In this document: positions 298-9,996 of the stretch, in pieces
Layout of the letters: the number at the start of each line of letters is the position of its first letter
Position numbering within the stretch: position 1 is the stretch's first letter
NCBI GenBank assembly: GCA_019828545.1
Contig: JACVRA010000452.1
Coordinates: 1 to 14,884 of the forward strand
Source: Paracamarosporium sp. OC-R06-R3
Taxonomy: Eukaryota; Ascomycota; Dothideomycetes; Pleosporales; Didymosphaeriaceae
Reading direction: 5' to 3'
DNA length: 14,884 nt
Translations under genes and position numbers: made by a program
The notes under the pieces: generated by a model
What the model was told of the DNA's origin: nothing
The model's input: the letters and a program-made list of their open reading frames with translations, nothing else
Database searches by the model: none

Positions 298-1017
298 TCA
301 CAACTTCAATTTCATCAAATTGGTCAACATCTCCCGACCCGTGATGACCGTCGTCCTCCACAGCGTTTGGAAGTCCAAGGTACTTGTGAAAGCTATACGA
401 AGTCAGCACCGCTCCGTCACTCAAAAGGCTACTGTGTTCTTCAGGCCACGCATTCTTGAAAACTTACTGTCTGCATATCCAAAAAACAACATGGGCGGAA
501 TCCATCCCCTCGCGTACTCCAAAGCAAAACAATTGTCCTTCATCCCATACTGCTTCACCTCACCCCTCTTCATCAGATTCACCTCGCCCTGCGGATATCT
601 TTCTGCCTCGAACGTCCCCGCCTTCCAAGCCAACTGCTCTCCTTTCAAAATCATAAAGTAGTCGTCAGCTGTGTGCCGTCCCGAGTGCCCTTCAGTTCCA
701 ATCGCTGAGCCGAAAATGATGAGGTACTCGGTGATAGAAGCGTGTATGAGGGTCATGGCGCCCATGGCTCCACCGGCGTTGTTGAATACCCATTCTTCTT
801 CGAGGTTCACGTAGTTGGGATGCGTCTTAGCAAGGTGTGAGATGATGTAGTCGGCTACGGCGCGAGTGTCGTTGCCGTGAGCGGCAATGGCGGATTTAGA
901 CAGGGTGTGTAGCTCGGCGGGGTCGAAAACGTAGAACTTCTCTAGGTGGGAGTCGAGCATGTACATGAGGGAAGAGATGACGGCGACGACTGCGCCGAGG
1001 AAGGTAAGGACGCGCAT
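298..1017 (-). CDS. ERG2: C-8 sterol isomerase (ERG2 / sigma-1 receptor family), 214 aa, one intron
   Basis: This is the ergosterol-pathway enzyme that moves the sterol B-ring double bond from C8 to C7 (fecosterol to episterol), in the ER membrane. It is the fungal homologue of the sigma-1 receptor and a morpholine fungicide target. Exon 1 is 1017-468, the intron 467-393 (75 nt, GTAAGT donor, GCTGAC branch, TATAG acceptor), and exon 2 392-298. Splicing in phase 1 restores a C-terminus reading GYADTFTSTLDF then TLWRTT and ITGREM, as in other ERG2 proteins; without it the frame stops after a nonsense tail. Visible features are an N-terminal hydrophobic segment (residues 1-21), EEWVFNNAGGAMG (73-86), the core IGTEGHSGRHTADDYF (106-121) and FALEYARGWIP (164-174). 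Asp119 and Glu167 line up by eye with the sigma-1 ligand-binding acidic pair. The length matches the family (yeast 222 aa). The start has a good context (GCACCATG). Confidence 0.96.
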
Positions 1018-2371
1018 GGTGCAATCTGGAACAAGGAAAAAGAAGCAAAGGAAAAAAACAGCTTGGACTTTGAAAACAAAGAAACAAACAGAAAAGGCTG
1101 ACCTGATAAAGATGATGGTCGTCCGAAAGAGGCAGTGTACTCAGGGGAGCGGGCGCTGTGATTGGCTGGAACCGCGGGTTTCCGGCGCTGACAAGATCAG
1201 CTCACGGAGTGCGCGGCTTGCGTAGACTCGCACTGAACGCGAAATTAAAGCTGCTGTGTGGGCCGAACCTTTTGCCTACTTCATCTCTCCTGCATCTACC
1301 AGGTGCATCGTTGTGGAAGCACAATATCTTGTAGTGCATCTGCTCACGTGCGCACGACACGACACCTGGAAGTGGCATGGTCAAAGTTACGAGCACACTG
1401 CTTCTGTATGTATCTTTGGTTCACCGTTCCTTATAGGACGCCTAGCATATTTCACAGCATCCCGGTCTTTGGATTTGGATAGAATAGGTATTCAACTCAA
1501 CCAACAATGGTCCAAGACATGGTCACGTTGGGACAGTGGTAAGCGCGCGTTGCGAGAATGGTGCTGCCTGGACTCGGGGATTGGAAGACGCTGCTCGGAC
1601 ATGCCCATTGCTCGGGAAAGCTTCCACGAGCAACAGGCAGCCAGATGTGGAGGATGGTGTTGAGTAGTTGGTGTTGGCGGGGTTCATGCGAACCCGGCGG
1701 CTGTGATTGGGCGCCTCGACCCAGCACGAGAGCTGCTTCTGACCAGGCACGAGACAACGCGTGTTTATTATTTACACAGGAGCCTGTCCTCGCCCATCCT
1801 CCGCACTCGCTGCATATCTATTCCTCCGTCCGCGCCGAACGCACGCACTCGCACTTGCACACGGCGACGCACAGTCGGTGCCCGTATCCTGTCGTCTCGC
1901 CGGCGCTTTTGCGGCAGAGCGAGCCGTCTGTGGTCTGTGACGTCGCTTCTCCGAGGTACGCTCGCCCGGCACAAATTTTTCCTCATGGCATATTTACGCT
2001 CCCCCCTGCACCCCGGGGCCCTGTAGCCCATCTGCTCCAACTGCCCGTGTGCTATTTGCTGAACCACCCAGCCGTCTTCCGCGCCCCTGGCAGTATACTG
2101 TGCCCTTCGTGGGACCTTGGCGCGCTAGCCCGCTTCCGGGCCGCCTGCTGTGAGAGCTCCAGCTCGCGTCACTCAAAAGTATCCAGTATTGTGCTTCAAT
2201 CACGGTGAGAGCCAACGCCATTCACCTCCTCACCTCGGGCATCTCCTCCACTTTTCGTGCTCCCCCCGCCCTTGCAGCCCGCAACCCCCATGATCTGCAA
2301 GCTTGCCAGTTGTTCTTTCCCCCTTGTTCACCGACACACCACTCGCGACCTCGCCTGAACCAGCTGGCACC
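1018..2371. promoter_or_regulatory. Divergent intergenic region between ERG2 and the OTU gene
   Basis: This region of about 1.35 kb serves as promoter and 5' UTR for both neighbours. On the ERG2 strand the first 70 nt upstream of the ATG are strongly CT-rich, a common leader type in filamentous fungi. An inverted CCAAT box (GATTGG) sits at 1160-1165, about 145 bp from ERG2, and an identical CTGTGATTGG 10-mer recurs at 1701-1710. A CACGTG E-box lies at 1345-1350. The half nearer the OTU gene (about 1780-2371) is CT-rich. An open frame at 1558-2208 is rich in Cys, His, Trp and Ser, resembles no family and has no coding feel, so I call no gene here. No TATA box is convincing. Confidence 0.55.
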
Positions 2372-3492
2372 ATGGCGCCCCGCAGATCGCGAGCAAACTC
2401 CCCAGAGTTTCCCATCCTCGAGGCCAATGCCTTGTATGCGGGGAGTATCAAGGGTGACGGTGAGTTCTACATGATGATTTCGACGCCGCTCAACGCTGAC
2501 GGCCCAAGGCAACTGCCTGTTCAATGCCCTTTCCGACCAGCTCTATGGCAACCAAGACATGCATGAGGTGCTCCGAACTTACACCATCGAGCACATGAAG
2601 CAGCATTCAGGCTTCTACCGCCAGTACATGGCCGTCAACAACGTTCGCCGAAATCCCAAACGCAAGACCACGGCTGCCTTGTCTACCACGGTCGAAACAA
2701 CTGCTTATACCGAAGAGGAGCTGCAACGTCAGTTCGAACAGCATGTTGAGAAGATGGGACAGCCGGGCGAGTGGGCGGATAACATGGAAGTATCGGCTTT
2801 TGCGTCCGCTTTTCATGTCCATGTTCGCCTCTGGCAGGCTGACTACACTATTCTCATTTCTCCGAGTTTCGACTACCAGTACGAGGAGCCTGATGCCGTC
2901 GATGATAGACAGACCCTTCACATTGCTTATCACGTAAGTACTTGTCATCACCAATTGCTTGGAATGTCACCCTGATCGTCTGCAGAGCTGGGAACACTAC
3001 TCGTCAGTCCGCAACAATGCTGGACCTCATACCGGCGTGCCTGAGGTCACCGTGATTCCACGACGGACCTCGTTGCGAAAACGACAGAGTCCTAGTGTCT
3101 CGGGTGACGACGAGGATGAAATCCCGCGTGCTCGGAAGCGTCGCTCACCCCTGCCGCTTTGCGACTCAGATTCGACACCTGAGTATACAGAGAGCTCGTC
3201 TGATGAATCAAATGGGCCCATGTTGTCGCAGACACATCTTGAGCTTCCTGACTCGACACAAGGCGCGAAGCCCCAAAAGCTTACTATCAAGCTACGATGT
3301 CTGCGGACTACCGACTCTGTCGAGCCTGTAGAGCCTGTCGAACCTCTTACAGCCATCCCACCACCAACCGTCACTCCGCCCTCACCTCTACCGCCCTCAT
3401 CAGTACCACCATCTACCCTCTCAGCGGTGTCCTCGGATATCGCACCACCCATATCTTCCACAACCACTACGACGACTGCTACGGCCACTTGA
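2372..3492 (+). CDS. OTU-domain cysteine protease (deubiquitinase, OTUD3-like), 339 aa, two introns
   Basis: This is a predicted deubiquitinase that cleaves ubiquitin isopeptide bonds, probably in cytosol or nucleus. Exons are 2372-2459, 2509-2933 and 2986-3492. Introns are 2460-2508 (49 nt, GTGAGT...CTGAC...AAG) and 2934-2985 (52 nt, GTAAGT...TGCAG). The start ATG lies in an excellent context (CACCATGG). The spliced protein shows the OTU signature GDGNCLFNALSDQLYG (residues 28-43, catalytic Cys32, Asp29) and, at the domain end, LHIAYHSWEHYSSVR with catalytic His175. These closely resemble human OTUD3 motifs. The region after about residue 185 is disordered: basic and acidic stretches (KRQ, DDEDE, RKRR, possible nuclear signal), a triple VEP repeat, Pro/Ser-rich runs and a Thr-rich tail. 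That tail is not part of the fold and may be a regulatory or interaction region. The gene converges on TRS85. Linkage specificity cannot be read from the sequence. Confidence 0.93.
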
Positions 3493-4223: not shown

Positions 4224-6594
4224 TTACACCGCCCCCTCAAACAGGTCGTTCTTTTCAGGTGTCCTCTCCAGCGTTGGACTCAATGGCCCTGCATCAATAT
4301 TAGGCGCCACAGCGCCAACAAGACTCTTCCTATGAGCTCGCGGGCTCGCATCCAGCGTCTCAGTCGCCTCCTCAACGGGGATACCCTGTTCTCCTTCCCC
4401 AGCGTCTTCGTCTCCGCCGAGTCCGCGATTCGCAAGCCGCAGCCCAAGGATCTGTTGCCGCAAATCGTCGACATAGTGCTGCATCTCATCGAAGGGCAAG
4501 CGCACCGGTCCGCCCTCCGTGTTCTCGGTATGGGCGCCATAGAGTTGCAACGCGGTATCAAGGCACTTTTCTGCTTGCAGCGCTTTGCTCTGGCGCCACC
4601 ATTCTTGGGCGGCGAGGACGGCCCAGAAGGCTGCCTTGCGGCGTCTGGAACCTAGTTTGAGGGTACCGAGACCGAGTCTGATAGAGAAGCACGCGGAGAT
4701 GCGCTCTGTAACTAAGGCGGTGCCGATGGAGCCCACGAGGTTCATTTCAAGGATGCGGGAGCCCCAGCGCGCGGCATCGTCGGCGGCAGAAGTACCACGT
4801 AAACGCAGCAACTCGAGAGACAGGGCGAGGGTTCGTAATGCATAGAAGGGGTTTGCGGAGCGTTGGCGGTCGGTGTAGCTGTAGGTTGCTGATCTTATCC
4901 ATTCGTCAATCTTTTCGGTACGGATCTTGGCTGTGAGTGCGGCAGGAGAGAGAAGTGCAGAGAGGGCTGCCATTTCAGCTGCGCCTGCGTAGTGCTGCCA
5001 TGCCTTGTCGTTGTTAAAATCCGTACACAAAATCTCGTATGTGCTGAGGGCCAGCTTGGTGTCACGCAGCATAAAGCAGTAATCTGCGAGTCTGCGCATG
5101 AGTGCCTCGGGTGCATCAGGACGGTAGAAGCCTCGGTTAGGGTCGTAATTGGAATTCGACGAGGAGATGGCGGAGGTGGAGCTTGTACGCGAGGAGCCGA
5201 ATGTTGTCCAGCGCTTGGATAGTGACATAAAGCGGCCAGAAAGGCCGCGACGGCGTGCGAGGACTTGCTCGTTCCATTGATGGATGTTGCGCTCCATGTG
5301 CGGGACCATGGATTGAGCGACGAGTTCACGGACAAAGGTCTTTATGGCGGTAACGTCCGAGTCGGGTATGTAAGGGGTTGGGTCTGTTATGTCGTCTGCA
5401 GTCTCTATATGGGAGAGAATCAGCAACGTGCCTAAAGATGCGAGGATATGGATCAAACGTACCTCGCTTCTGAATCTCTGCCAATTCTTCTGACGCAGAC
5501 ATCCATTCGCAAGTCGGCAACCGTACAGCATCATCATCTGAGGATATACACTGTTGGCCTTTTAACCGTAGCAGGTGGCAATTGAGCCCAAAGTGCCGCT
5601 TCATAGAGTCAAAGGTTGCGTTCGATTTCGCAATGTCGCCTGCCTCCTCTTCGTGAATGAACACATAGTACCTCAAAAACAGACCGTCTACCCACTGCGG
5701 GAATCGAAGGTCACCCTGATGCTGTCTATTGTATAGCTCCCTAAGCTGTTCGACGGGATCTGCGCTCCTTGAACTCGTCACAATAACACCAACAACCGGG
5801 TGCGCAAAGGTTTCGTGAGGGACCATGGGTAGGCCTGATAGAAGCCGGCGGAGGTACAAGGCGTAAAAAGGAGATTTGCCGCTTTCCTGGGGGACTGGTT
5901 CGCCCTGGTTCAGATAGTCGGGCACCAAGCCCTGGGCGTTGAATTCGGTATACTGCAGATGGCGGTCCACCAGCTCTTCGACCTGGGCAATATCGCCACC
6001 CACACGCCGCGGCCGTACTGGATGTTCTCCCTGTGCGTTGGGTGGAGGTGGTTTCCCTGCAAGGCCTTCGTTGAAGCCGACGAAGCGTACACCAAAGTCA
6101 TCGTAGCTCTTGCTTGCCCCAACGCTGTCCCGTATCGTGACCTTGCCCGGCACCGACTCTCCAAACGGGCGCAGGAGCTGGAGCAGCCCACCTTCCAATC
6201 CCTTGCCACGGATCAACTCCTCGGTCTCGTTGTCGGCCACCAGCACGACGTGGGGCGCAAAGGCCTGCTGTATGAGCGACCTGTGCTCGTCCGACAGGCC
6301 CGGGGGCAGGGCGCCCGGGGTGCCGGTGCCATTCTGTCTTGATGCGGATCCCGGGGAGAAGACGGAGCCAGGCACCACGGAGGCGGTGGGCGTGGAGCTG
6401 CCGGAGCCGGGGCGCGAGGACGATATCGAGGCGGTGGACTCGAACAGCTTGTGCAGCGACGGGTTGGATCTGCGGTAGGGCAGCGAGGCCAGCGAGGAGG
6501 CGGGCGACGCACGCTGCTTGGGCAGGATCAGGGACGCGTCCAGGTCGGCGGGATACTTTGGGGGCTTCGGCGTGGCATCTTGGGCGGGCGTCAT
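4224..6594 (-). CDS. TRS85: TRAPP complex subunit Trs85 (TRAPPC8 family), about 770 aa, one intron
   Basis: Trs85 is the subunit specific to TRAPPIII, which activates the Rab GTPase Ypt1/Rab1 at the pre-autophagosomal structure and Golgi. Exon 1 is 6594-5463, the intron 5462-5405 (58 nt, GTACGT donor, GCTGAT branch, ATATAG acceptor) and exon 2 5404-4224. Splicing rebuilds a Glu codon (residue 378) between EIQKR and TADDITDP. After a Ser/Pro-rich N-terminus (residues 1-90) the conserved region includes SPFYALYLRRLLSGLPMVPH and FLRYYVFIHEE. Exon 2 carries the family hallmark SMVPHMERNIHQWNEQV (409-425) and RRGLSGRFMSLSKRW (429-443), followed by helical, TPR-like sequence. Yeast Trs85 is 698 aa, so the length fits. 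The start is uncertain. The ATG at 6594 begins MTPAQD and gives a plausible N-terminus; an in-frame ATG at 6792 would add 66 mostly Arg-rich residues that look like translated leader, although its context is better. Confidence 0.9.
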
Positions 6595-6905
6595 GGGGGG
6601 CTCGGGCGGGGCGCCCACGGCGTTGAGGTTGCGCGCACAGGTTCTGGGGCCGTCGGCATGTATTCTGGCGCTGTGCAGGCGGGTCCTGGGGCGGCAGCGG
6701 GCTCGCGGGCGCGGGTCTGCGTTTGAGGCTCGCGGTTTGCGCTGGCGAGACGTTCGTGACCGATTGGACGAGACGAGCACACCTCCATCCATCACAGACC
6801 CCAATCCCCACGCCCACGCTCCTTTGGCCCCGGCGCCGCATGAACCGCCGTCTCCAAGACTGCTCGACCCTCTGCTGCCCTGGGATGCCCTTCTGACTCA
6901 CCTGC
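6595..6905. promoter_or_regulatory. Short GC-rich divergent promoter of TRS85 and CCA1-TTI2
   Basis: Only 311 bp separate the preferred TRS85 start from the first ATG of the CCA gene, so both are probably driven from one shared region. It is very GC-rich from 6595 to about 6750. On the minus strand it holds ATGs at 6792 (in frame with TRS85), 6788 and 6659. The last two share one frame that ends at TGA 6593-6591, overlapping the TRS85 ATG at 6594 by an ATGA motif. No TATA box or CCAAT box is obvious. Confidence 0.5.
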
Positions 6906-8930
6906 ATGCCATTGATGAGCCGTACCTTCCGTGCTGGTCCACCGCGAAGAATTTCCTTGTATCCCCATCCCCAGCTCACCCGACCCTCGCTTTTCGGTCG
7001 CCTCCAGCCCTGTTCACTTCGTCCCTTCTCTCGCATGCCTGCGGAAAGGCTGCCGTCACCTGACCCCCAAGAAGAGCCTGCTGCCAAACGGCGAAGGACT
7101 GGGCCCTGTGAGCCTCGTTTCATACGCTCCTATACCGGCATGGCCGCTCGGTCTGATGCAAACCCAACCACGCTAGAGCTGACCGACGAAGAGACCAAGC
7201 TTCGAAACCTGCTTCTTGCGGTTGCCGCTTACATTGATGATGCCCCTTCTTCCGAACATACGGGGGTCCCCGTGCCTGCAGAGGTCGTGCACGAGAAGAT
7301 TGTGCTACGGTGGACCGGTGGCTGGGTTCGTGACAAGCTACTCGGGGTGGGGAGTCACGATGTCGACGTTGCCATCAACAAGATGACTGGCGAGAACTTC
7401 GGCTTGAAGATGCTGCAATACCTCAAGGTCCCGGGCAACCTCGAGAAGCACGACTTCGGCGCAGTAGAGAGCGGCAAAATCATGTCTGGGCTACACACTA
7501 TTAAGGCAAACCCAGAGGCCTCCAAGAACCTCGAAACGGCGACCATCAAGGTCATGGGCATTGACCTTGACCTTGTCAATCTCAGAAAAGAGACGTACGA
7601 CGACGTCAGTCGGAACCCGCAAATGGAATTTGGGACCGCAGAAGAAGATGCGATGCGTCGAGATGCTACCGTGAACGCAATGTTCTACAACTTGAATACC
7701 CAACAGATTGAGGACTTCACCCATCGCGGTTTCGATGACATGGCCGCAAAGGTCATACGGACACCTCTTGAACCCTATCAAACCTTCAAAGATGATCCAC
7801 TGCGAGTGCTGAGGCTGGTTCGCTTTGCAAGTCGGCTTAACTACACACTCGACCCAGACACCGCGAAGGCCATGGCAAACAAAGACATCCAAGAAGCTCT
7901 TAAGATCAAGATCAAACGTGAGAGAGTAGGAATTGAAATGGAGAAGATGCTCAAAGGGCCTGACCCTGGCATGGCCCTCCGACTCATCGACGAGGCCGGT
8001 CTCTATGATACCATTTTCACCGATCCGACTCGGAAATTAGAGTTCCAACCTGATATAGAACATTACCGGAAGGCGTATAGATTCATGACATCGTGGCATC
8101 ATGAGCGTGAGAGCTCAAAAAACTCGATTGTTTCTCAAACATTGTTGAGCACTCGTGACGCGGAGTCTGACGAGGAATATCTTGCGTGGGTCTGTACGGC
8201 AGTCATGCCGTGGGCTGATGCACCAACGATTCCACCTCCAAAGAAAAATAAGCAGCCTCTTCACGCCGCTTACCTCGTAGCTCAAGAGGGTCTAAAAGCA
8301 CCTAATCGGGTATGCGACGTCATTGCGGCTTCTTTGAGCAATTACGAGGCTATTTCTCAGTTGGTTGGAGAGTGCCAGAAGCAACTTGCCGATCAGGAAT
8401 CCGGATTACCTGCCCAGAGGGAAAAAATAGGTATGGCTCTACGGAGTTGGGGCCGCACATGGAAGTCACAAGTCTTCTTCTCGCTGTTACACGAGATCGT
8501 GTATGGTCCGCATCGTGCTGAAGGTATGTATGCTGTTCGACTTACTATCGAACTATTGTAATCCGGAGCGTGTACTCCATCGCAGTCGAATTCGTACACC
8601 CTCCATCGTGTATTGACTGACCATATCAGATATACTTTGCCAATATGCCAATTTTCTTACCCTCGTCACCGACCTCAATCTCCTAGATGTCATCAGCCTC
8701 AAGCCGCTTGTGAACGGTACGCAGCTTGCTAAAGCTCTTGACGTTAAGCCTGGCCCATGGATGAAAGACGCTCTCGACGTCGTTTTGGCCTGGCAATTGC
8801 GCAACCCCTCCGTCACCGATCCAGCCGATGCAATCGCGGAAGTTAAGAAGACCAGCAAAAGTGAGCTACCCTCTCGACTCATCTCCCATTTCCTGACGCT
8901 TACGATCCGTCCTCTCTTCTCGCAGCTTAA
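6906..8930 (+). CDS. CCA1: Alternative product: CCA-adding enzyme alone, 617 aa
   Basis: If the candidate intron 8861-8925 is removed in addition to intron 8524-8629, exons 6906-8523, 8630-8860 and 8926-8930 encode a 617-residue protein. Its last codons are AGC AAA ACT TAA. It ends just after the DVVLAWQL...AIAEVKK segment, which is about where stand-alone eukaryotic CCA-adding enzymes end. The product would be a complete enzyme with no Tti2 part. This isoform is inferred from splice consensus only. In the spliced message everything after 8930 would be a long 3' UTR with a further intron at 9662-9745, so it might be exposed to nonsense-mediated decay unless polyadenylated early. Confidence 0.5.
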
Positions 8931-9996
8931 GACAGAAAATGTTGGAGACGCTTCGGCGCCATGGAAGATGCGCGAGAATAGGTCCTTCTTTGATCTACTG
9001 CAATGGTGCATAAGAGCAGCAGATGAGAAAGATTTGCGAGAGTGGTTTAAATTAGTGAGACCACCGGTTTTCCGGATGTTGGAGGATAGTGATATCGAGT
9101 GGAATGCGAAAGCGTGCCAGATCATCACCCAGCTAGTGCGAAAGGCACCTAGAAGCATGAAGGAAGAGTGTCGGAATCTATTCTCCGAAGATCTGTTTGG
9201 TTGCTTCAATTATCTCCCCACTCTGACTCCTGCGCAAGATTCTGCAAAGCTACTAGCGCATGTGTATCCGGCTCTGATATCCTTTGTGCCTATAGCGGAG
9301 GAGAAAATTGCAGACCACAGCTGGCAAACTACATCTTCAGTGGAGAACCAGCGTACAAATAATTCATCACTCAACGATAAGGACGTTCGCTTCCTCGACA
9401 AGATCGTCCGGCAAGGTGCCATAGCTGTTCTTCATCATGCCCCAAGTCCGACCACTTATCCTGACCTCACGACTCTCGTTTTGGAAAATCTCATACGCCT
9501 CATCATTGCGCAGGAAGTCGAATGGGTCAAGCACGCCAACGATCTCCTCCCTTTGCTTCACGACATCCTCCGCGACAGGTTCAGTCCCGCGCACCCTGAC
9601 CTCCCATTTGCAGCAGCCAGGTGCATCAGAATATGCATTTCAAATGGTTGGCCTCGTATGGGTGAGTGTTTCTCTACCCCCCTTTTCTCTTTTTTAGGTT
9701 TTTTCTCTCTCTGCAGTACGAATTCTAATTGTGACTGTCCCATAGATGCCAAACGCTTACAGGATATGTACCTCTCTGTCGCTACAGCTTGGGTTAATTG
9801 TTCGGGGTATGAAAAAGACTCAGGGCGACTTGAAGCAATGAAACTGGAGTTGAAGCACTCTACGGTGTACTTGGAGCGCGCTTTCTATAGACCTGGGTTC
9901 GACATGGATGCGACGAATTGGTGGACTGGAGAGAAAGAGAGAGTTAGGAGAGACAAAGCACCGTGGATAGCTATGCTGGGATTATGCAGCGAATGA
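6906..9996 (+). CDS. CCA-adding tRNA nucleotidyltransferase fused to a Tti2-like protein, 966 aa (long form)
   Basis: Exons are 6906-8523, 8630-9661 and 9746-9996. Introns are 8524-8629 (GTATGT...CTGAC...TCAG) and 9662-9745 (GTGAGT...CATAG). Residues 92-616 are a class II CCA-adding enzyme, which adds the 3' CCA end to tRNAs. Visible motifs are GGWVRDKLLG with the metal-binding pair Asp152/Asp154 in SHDVDVAI (motif A), RRDATVNAMFYN (251-262, motif B), DDPLRVLRLVRFASRL (296-311) and KRERVGIEME (337-346). The C-terminal KPGPWM element is as in yeast Cca1. From residue 617 the same frame continues into a helical Tti2-family region: LTLTIRPLFSQ, APWK, WFKLVRPPVFRMLEDSDI. Tti2 belongs to the Tel2-Tti1-Tti2 cochaperone that matures PI3K-like kinases. 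The first 45 residues contain no acidic residue and eight Arg, so they look like a mitochondrial presequence. Two features are odd: the fusion itself, and a candidate extra intron at the domain border (see the separate entry). The Tti2 part is shorter at its N-terminus than stand-alone Tti2 proteins. Confidence 0.88.
8861..8925 (+). other. Candidate alternatively spliced intron at the CCA/Tti2 boundary (65 nt)
   Basis: The donor is AAAA|GTGAGC and the acceptor is TCTCTTCTCGCAG|C, a strong pyrimidine tract. Two possible branch sites (CTGAC, CTTAC) lie in TTTCCTGACGCTTACG about 20-30 nt upstream. The length suits the other introns in the window. It is not a multiple of three, and splicing puts an in-frame TAA at 8928-8930. 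Retained, it has no stop and encodes residues 617-638, including IRPLFSQ, the sequence expected at the start of the Tti2 core. It therefore reads convincingly both as intron and as coding sequence. Confidence 0.55.

Follow-up and report, generated by a model that had tools for sequence, protein, structure and literature searches.

The window analyzed here is a stretch of 14,884 nucleotides from Paracamarosporium sp. OC-R06-R3, whose genome assembly comprises 43.1 Mb in 337 contigs and, in its genes and the layout of their introns, looks fungal. Its first half carries genes for an ERG2/sigma-1-receptor-like protein (421–1140, minus strand; 268.9 bits), an OTU protease (2478–2975, plus strand; 48.8 bits) and the TRAPP subunit Trs85, the last in two open frames (4224–6897, minus strand; 248.6 and 203.2 bits) and divergent from the gene that is the subject of this work. 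Elsewhere in the same genome, the contig ends of stretches L017, L006 and L015 have a G+C content of 18–30%, versus about 50% in many other stretches; low-G+C contig ends of this kind resemble those of genomes with repeat-induced point mutation.

Downstream of Trs85 the plus strand contains two long open frames with Pfam profile matches, one (6897–8561) to the head and RNA-binding domains of a CCA-adding enzyme and the other (8617–9996) to the tail of that enzyme and to Tti2; joins at 8523/8630 and 9661/9746 turn them into a single protein of 963 residues, counted from the ATG at 6915. Exon 1 (6915–8523), delimited from the open frame and its list of ATG codons, encodes the N-terminal and catalytic portions of the CCA-adding enzyme, with the PolyA_pol head domain PF01743 at 7308–7760 (80.1 bits, cut-off 23) and the PolyA_pol_RNAbd domain PF12627 at 7839–8018 (29.1 bits, cut-off 22). 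Removal of predicted intron 1 (8524–8629, 106 nt, GTATGT...CTGAC...TCAG, splice score 22.9) places the CCA body and C-terminal tail in frame. Within the region 8524–8585 on the same strand there is also an alternative acceptor at 8585, which scores 18.0 with branch distance included versus 22.9 for the acceptor at 8629, and whose use would shift the frame. The first part of exon 2 (8630–8860) runs from the CCA C-terminal tail to the Tti2 border as placed by alignment to PDB entries 9ns4 and 9ns2, and the Tti2 domain itself (PF10521, 8830–9585; 130.7 bits, cut-off 25.2) spans positions 23–277 of the 279 in the profile, its start at 8830 overlapping the final CCA residues. A predicted last intron (9662–9745, 84 nt, GTGAGT...ATAG, T-rich, splice score 18.6) is followed by the last exon (9746–9996), which holds the C-terminal part of Tti2 and the stop codon; since this intron is a multiple of three and free of stops, the frame is open whether it is removed or retained.

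A profile search of the entire 43.1-Mb assembly gave one match each for PF01743 and PF10521, both at this locus, so that the fusion gene should be the source of both CCA enzyme and Tti2, barring a further copy missing from the assembly. The reading frame passes from the CCA enzyme into Tti2 with no stop across the border. At the level of sequence, the case for a genuine single-copy gene with the CCA enzyme as N-terminal and Tti2 as C-terminal partner is solid, and the fusion would be translated whole as one protein of about 963 residues. No relative turned up in two collections of prokaryote and viral DNA, which are non-fungal, and a literature search that covered few subscription journals and no protein database returned no paper pairing Tti2 with a tRNA nucleotidyltransferase and none mentioning PF10521.

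By its domains and its complete tail, the CCA part is predicted to be a fungal (e-type) CCA tRNA nucleotidyltransferase. Residues 410–473 of 487 in S. pombe cca2 and 435–489 of 502 in S. pombe cca1 align to exon 2, and the tail profile PF13735 gives 25.7 bits there, just below its cut-off of 27. The S. pombe enzymes (PDB 9ns2 for cca1 and 9ns4 for cca2) share head domain, RNA-binding region and C-terminal tail with the fusion protein, but they end where the latter runs on into Tti2. The plus-strand sequence at 7596–7619 encodes YDDVSRNP, which matches the flexible-loop pattern Yxxx(x)SRxP described for fungal CCA enzymes (PMC7014341). In-frame ATG codons occur at 6906, 6915, 7035, 7140 and further on, that at 6915 being used here as the start. 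The first 40 residues from ATG 6915 (plus-strand region 6906–7140) include eight Arg and neither Asp nor Glu and resemble a mitochondrial presequence, which a start at 7035 would omit. The alternative starts suggest dual targeting of the CCA enzyme; in yeast, CCA1 is dually targeted through alternative starts.

The Tti2 part shares PF10521 with Tti2/TTI2 of the TTT complex as described for yeast (PMC4889661) and human (PMC8278493), and differs from them in carrying an N-terminal CCA enzyme. Tel2, a partner in the same complex, has a single match in the genome. Between 8617 and the Tti2 core only two in-frame ATG codons are found, one at 8761, inside the CCA tail, and one at 8968, a start from which would lose the border segment described below. 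Within the human complex, TTI2 contacts TTI1 through its N-terminal half (PMC8278493), and by analogy loss of the N-terminal helix would probably harm Tti2.

At the border between the two parts lies a 65-nt segment, 8861–8925, that reads GTGAGC...CTGACGCTTAC...CTCGCAG and has the features of a short intron, namely AAAA immediately upstream, GT at 8861–8862, AG at 8924–8925 and candidate branch sites CTGAC (8893–8897) and CTTAC (8899–8903). Its length is not a multiple of three. The chain of S. pombe cca2 (PDB 9ns4) aligns as far as residue 66 of the second open frame with 14 residues remaining, and that of cca1 (PDB 9ns2) as far as residue 74 with 13 remaining, which by extrapolation places the natural CCA terminus at about 8856 and 8877, respectively; the proposed donor at 8861 falls within this interval. 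The segment is therefore situated between the two domains, as the preliminary description of this DNA had proposed, and the two products described there were likewise recovered. When the segment is retained, together with base 8860 it encodes SELPSRLISHFLTLTIRPLFSQ and the frame stays open through 8861–8925 into Tti2; when it is removed, the junction reads AAA-ACT-TAA, and the shifted frame ends at the TAA at 8928–8930 to give a CCA enzyme of 614 residues from ATG 6915 that terminates in ...KKTSKT.

The quality of the segment as an intron was evaluated against introns of the same genome. A splice model was prepared from 40 short genome stretches around kinase/helicase exon pairs or in-frame stops, 38 of which were used; 35 groups had candidates and yielded 26 introns, among which neither of the fusion gene's other two introns was included. 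The segment scores 16.5, compared with leave-one-out scores of 8.1–24.3 for the training introns, 6 of which score lower. Its branch word is good, its donor and acceptor rank near the middle (12 and 13 of the 26 introns score lower, respectively), and its branch site is remote from the acceptor: the median branch-to-acceptor distance in the training set is 14–15 nt, whereas the 33 nt from CTGAC is reached by one intron of the 26 and the 27 nt from the weaker CTTAC by two. Because of its below-average score, middling splice sites and distant branch site, the segment passes as a plausible intron but not as a strong one. The signals that had been called strong are thus all present (GT, AG and branch words), but their strength is not borne out.

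Composition presents a similarly mixed picture. The segment is 71% pyrimidine compared with 46% and 43% in its flanks, a level matched or exceeded in 0.4% of 46,917 coding windows from the null set and in 2% of 2,697 windows in the fusion gene. However, such richness points to an intron only in part, because introns of the training set have interiors that are 44–70% pyrimidine. The likelihood ratio of intron to codon usage is 0.1 bit for the segment, which is reached by 11% of 15,723 coding windows, and 8 of the 26 introns, taken in their most coding-like frame, are less intron-like than the segment. The hydrophobic helix that it encodes accounts for its composition nearly as well as an intron does. 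Folding of the region gave no stable RNA structure (z +1.95; 196 of 200 shuffled sequences fold equally well or better).

The frequency with which such segments arise in coding DNA was estimated on 48,087 nt of sequence in 18 long open frames drawn from this genome. Pseudo-introns scoring equally well or better were found at 6 donors (0.125 per kb, in 6 of the 18 frames) when branch distance was ignored and at 14 donors (0.291 per kb, in 11 frames) when it was included; away from the ends of the frames the counts are 3 and 9, respectively. The full counts predict 0.36–0.84 such segments in the 2.89-kb coding sequence and 0.005–0.012 in the 42-nt border interval; with the lower counts taken in, the ranges become 0.2–0.8 and 0.003–0.012. 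When the codons of exon 2 from 8632 to 9639 were redrawn synonymously with the codon usage of the null frames (n = 4000), 13% of the resampled sequences contained an intron of matching quality whose donor lay in the border interval, and in 2% the donor lay exactly at 8861. Among 983 frame-shifting GT..AG pairs picked at random, 5% place a stop at the junction codon or in the codon after it. Taken together, position, composition and early stop are suggestive, but they were assembled post hoc and fall short of proof. The earlier inference of selection, from a sequence that works as intron and coding DNA alike, is not supported, nor is the view that the segment is exceptionally good as an intron: at the densities and resampling frequency given above, coding DNA of this genome yields comparable segments often enough.

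As coding DNA the segment was evaluated by its contribution to the Tti2 profile match. The native 22 residues give a Tti2 score of 129.2 and a match that starts inside the segment; X in their place gives 123.6. Eight control pieces of 22 residues, taken from elsewhere in this protein and set in the same position, give 123.4–124.9, and the match enters none of them. The native residues thus add 4.3 to 5.8 Pfam bits to the match, above all eight controls, and in a longer construct removal of the segment costs 5.0 bits (127.5 to 122.5). A single-sequence AlphaFold2 model places the segment at residues 77–98 and a helix at residues 81–101, with a mean pLDDT of 57.7 and about 50 in this region, and is accordingly of low confidence. 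In view of the score gain and the modeled helix, the segment most likely belongs to Tti2. The motif IRPLFSQ, previously described as the conserved start of Tti2, is in this way weakly supported, the gain in bits being a property of the whole 22-residue segment. Because the retained residues raise the Tti2 score above all eight controls, retention is probably the default.

The spliced form, if produced, would have an unfavorable fate. Its stop at 8928–8930 precedes the next predicted exon junction (9661/9746) by 731 nt, and both Mago nashi and UPF2 are present in the genome; a spliced mRNA is therefore predicted to be a target of decay unless the transcript ends early. For such an early end no AATAAA or ATTAAA was seen. 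In Neurospora, transcripts with introns in the 3' UTR or with long 3' UTRs can be targets of nonsense-mediated decay (PMC7746235, citing Zhang and Sachs 2015).

These results are best accommodated, with a probability that we would put somewhat above even, by a real fusion gene in which the border segment is a cryptic intron, rarely or never used, in ordinary coding DNA. On this reading 8861–8925 would be ordinary coding sequence for the first helix of Tti2 that happens by chance to make a passable intron; retention would be the default and would alone allow Tti2 to carry this N-terminal helix; and any splicing would give a minor mRNA for a CCA enzyme lacking Tti2, which would probably be degraded by nonsense-mediated decay, its stop lying so far ahead of the exon junction. 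The spliced form is thus expected to be rare and to decay. Counting against this explanation are the coincidence with the border, where only 0.003–0.012 such segments are expected, the pyrimidine content of 71% and the early stop, a 5% event; it is also possible that Tti2 is made from the internal start at 8761.

A functional switch, in which a weak regulated intron sets the ratio between a CCA–Tti2 fusion (retention) and the CCA enzyme by itself (splicing), is a possible but distinctly less probable explanation. The location of the segment at the border with a clean CCA terminus fits such a switch, as do intron signals that are weak yet complete (6 of 26 genuine introns are weaker), a composition with sharp edges combined with the early stop, and the single CCA and single Tti2 match that the assembly yielded. 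There is also fungal precedent for one gene yielding two proteins by splicing in SKI7/HBS1 and PTC7 (PMC3597508). In many fungi SKI7/HBS1 resembles the present proposal in that one gene gives two functional proteins via alternative mRNA forms; there, however, the choice is made by alternative 3' splice sites, and in some fungi by alternative starts or exon skipping, whereas here it would lie between retention and splicing at the border of two unrelated proteins. SKI7/HBS1 is moreover backed by RNA and complementation data, while the choice at the present locus is a proposal from sequence. In PTC7 of the Saccharomycetaceae, as in the proposal, an intron is either retained and translated or spliced, with both forms coding, but that intron is a multiple of three and alters the targeting of one phosphatase, while the segment examined here is not a multiple of three and its removal loses a whole domain. 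As described in PMC3597508, neither system joins unrelated proteins by retention. Weighing against a switch are signals within the range of chance, a branch site distant from the acceptor, a pyrimidine content atypical of introns in this genome, a region devoid of stable RNA structure that might serve control, and a spliced form that is a predicted target of decay. None of the results points to actual splicing or to control by stress or growth state. Support for the switch is circumstantial and weak to moderate.

Less probable by a wide step is a constitutive intron in overlapping genes, where the CCA gene would end at 8930 and Tti2 would come from its own transcript starting inside the CCA gene, either from ATG 8761 with the segment unspliced or from ATG 8968. 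Such an arrangement would account for the intron-like signals and composition, and a pyrimidine-rich stretch of 65 nt can by chance lack stops and share the frame of Tti2. A start at 8968, however, loses the N-terminal helix that matches the profile, in the half of the protein that in human TTI2 contacts TTI1 (PMC8278493), and a start at 8761 lies inside CCA coding sequence and would require one transcript to keep the segment that the other loses. Finally, a former intron or intergenic spacer captured as coding sequence at the time of fusion, with splice signals that persist as relics, would explain position, composition and weak signals together with no present use, but the modest Tti2 match of the segment implies that part of it is probably older than the fusion, and this is the least probable explanation, if only slightly so.

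The cryptic-intron reading and the switch differ in what the locus would mean for the biology of this fungus. That one 65-nt coding intron, lying exactly where two unrelated essential proteins meet, selects between the fusion and a CCA enzyme on its own, and thereby couples the amount of a PIKK (TOR) co-chaperone to the maturation of tRNA, we consider doubtful. The fusion itself is of interest, as a covalent link between CCA addition and the Tel2–Tti1–Tti2 co-chaperone was not found in the literature searched. If the border intron is used, the locus would represent a rare fungal splicing choice between two unrelated proteins; if it is not, it would be a compact example of coding DNA at a fusion border that mimics an intron and misleads gene prediction.
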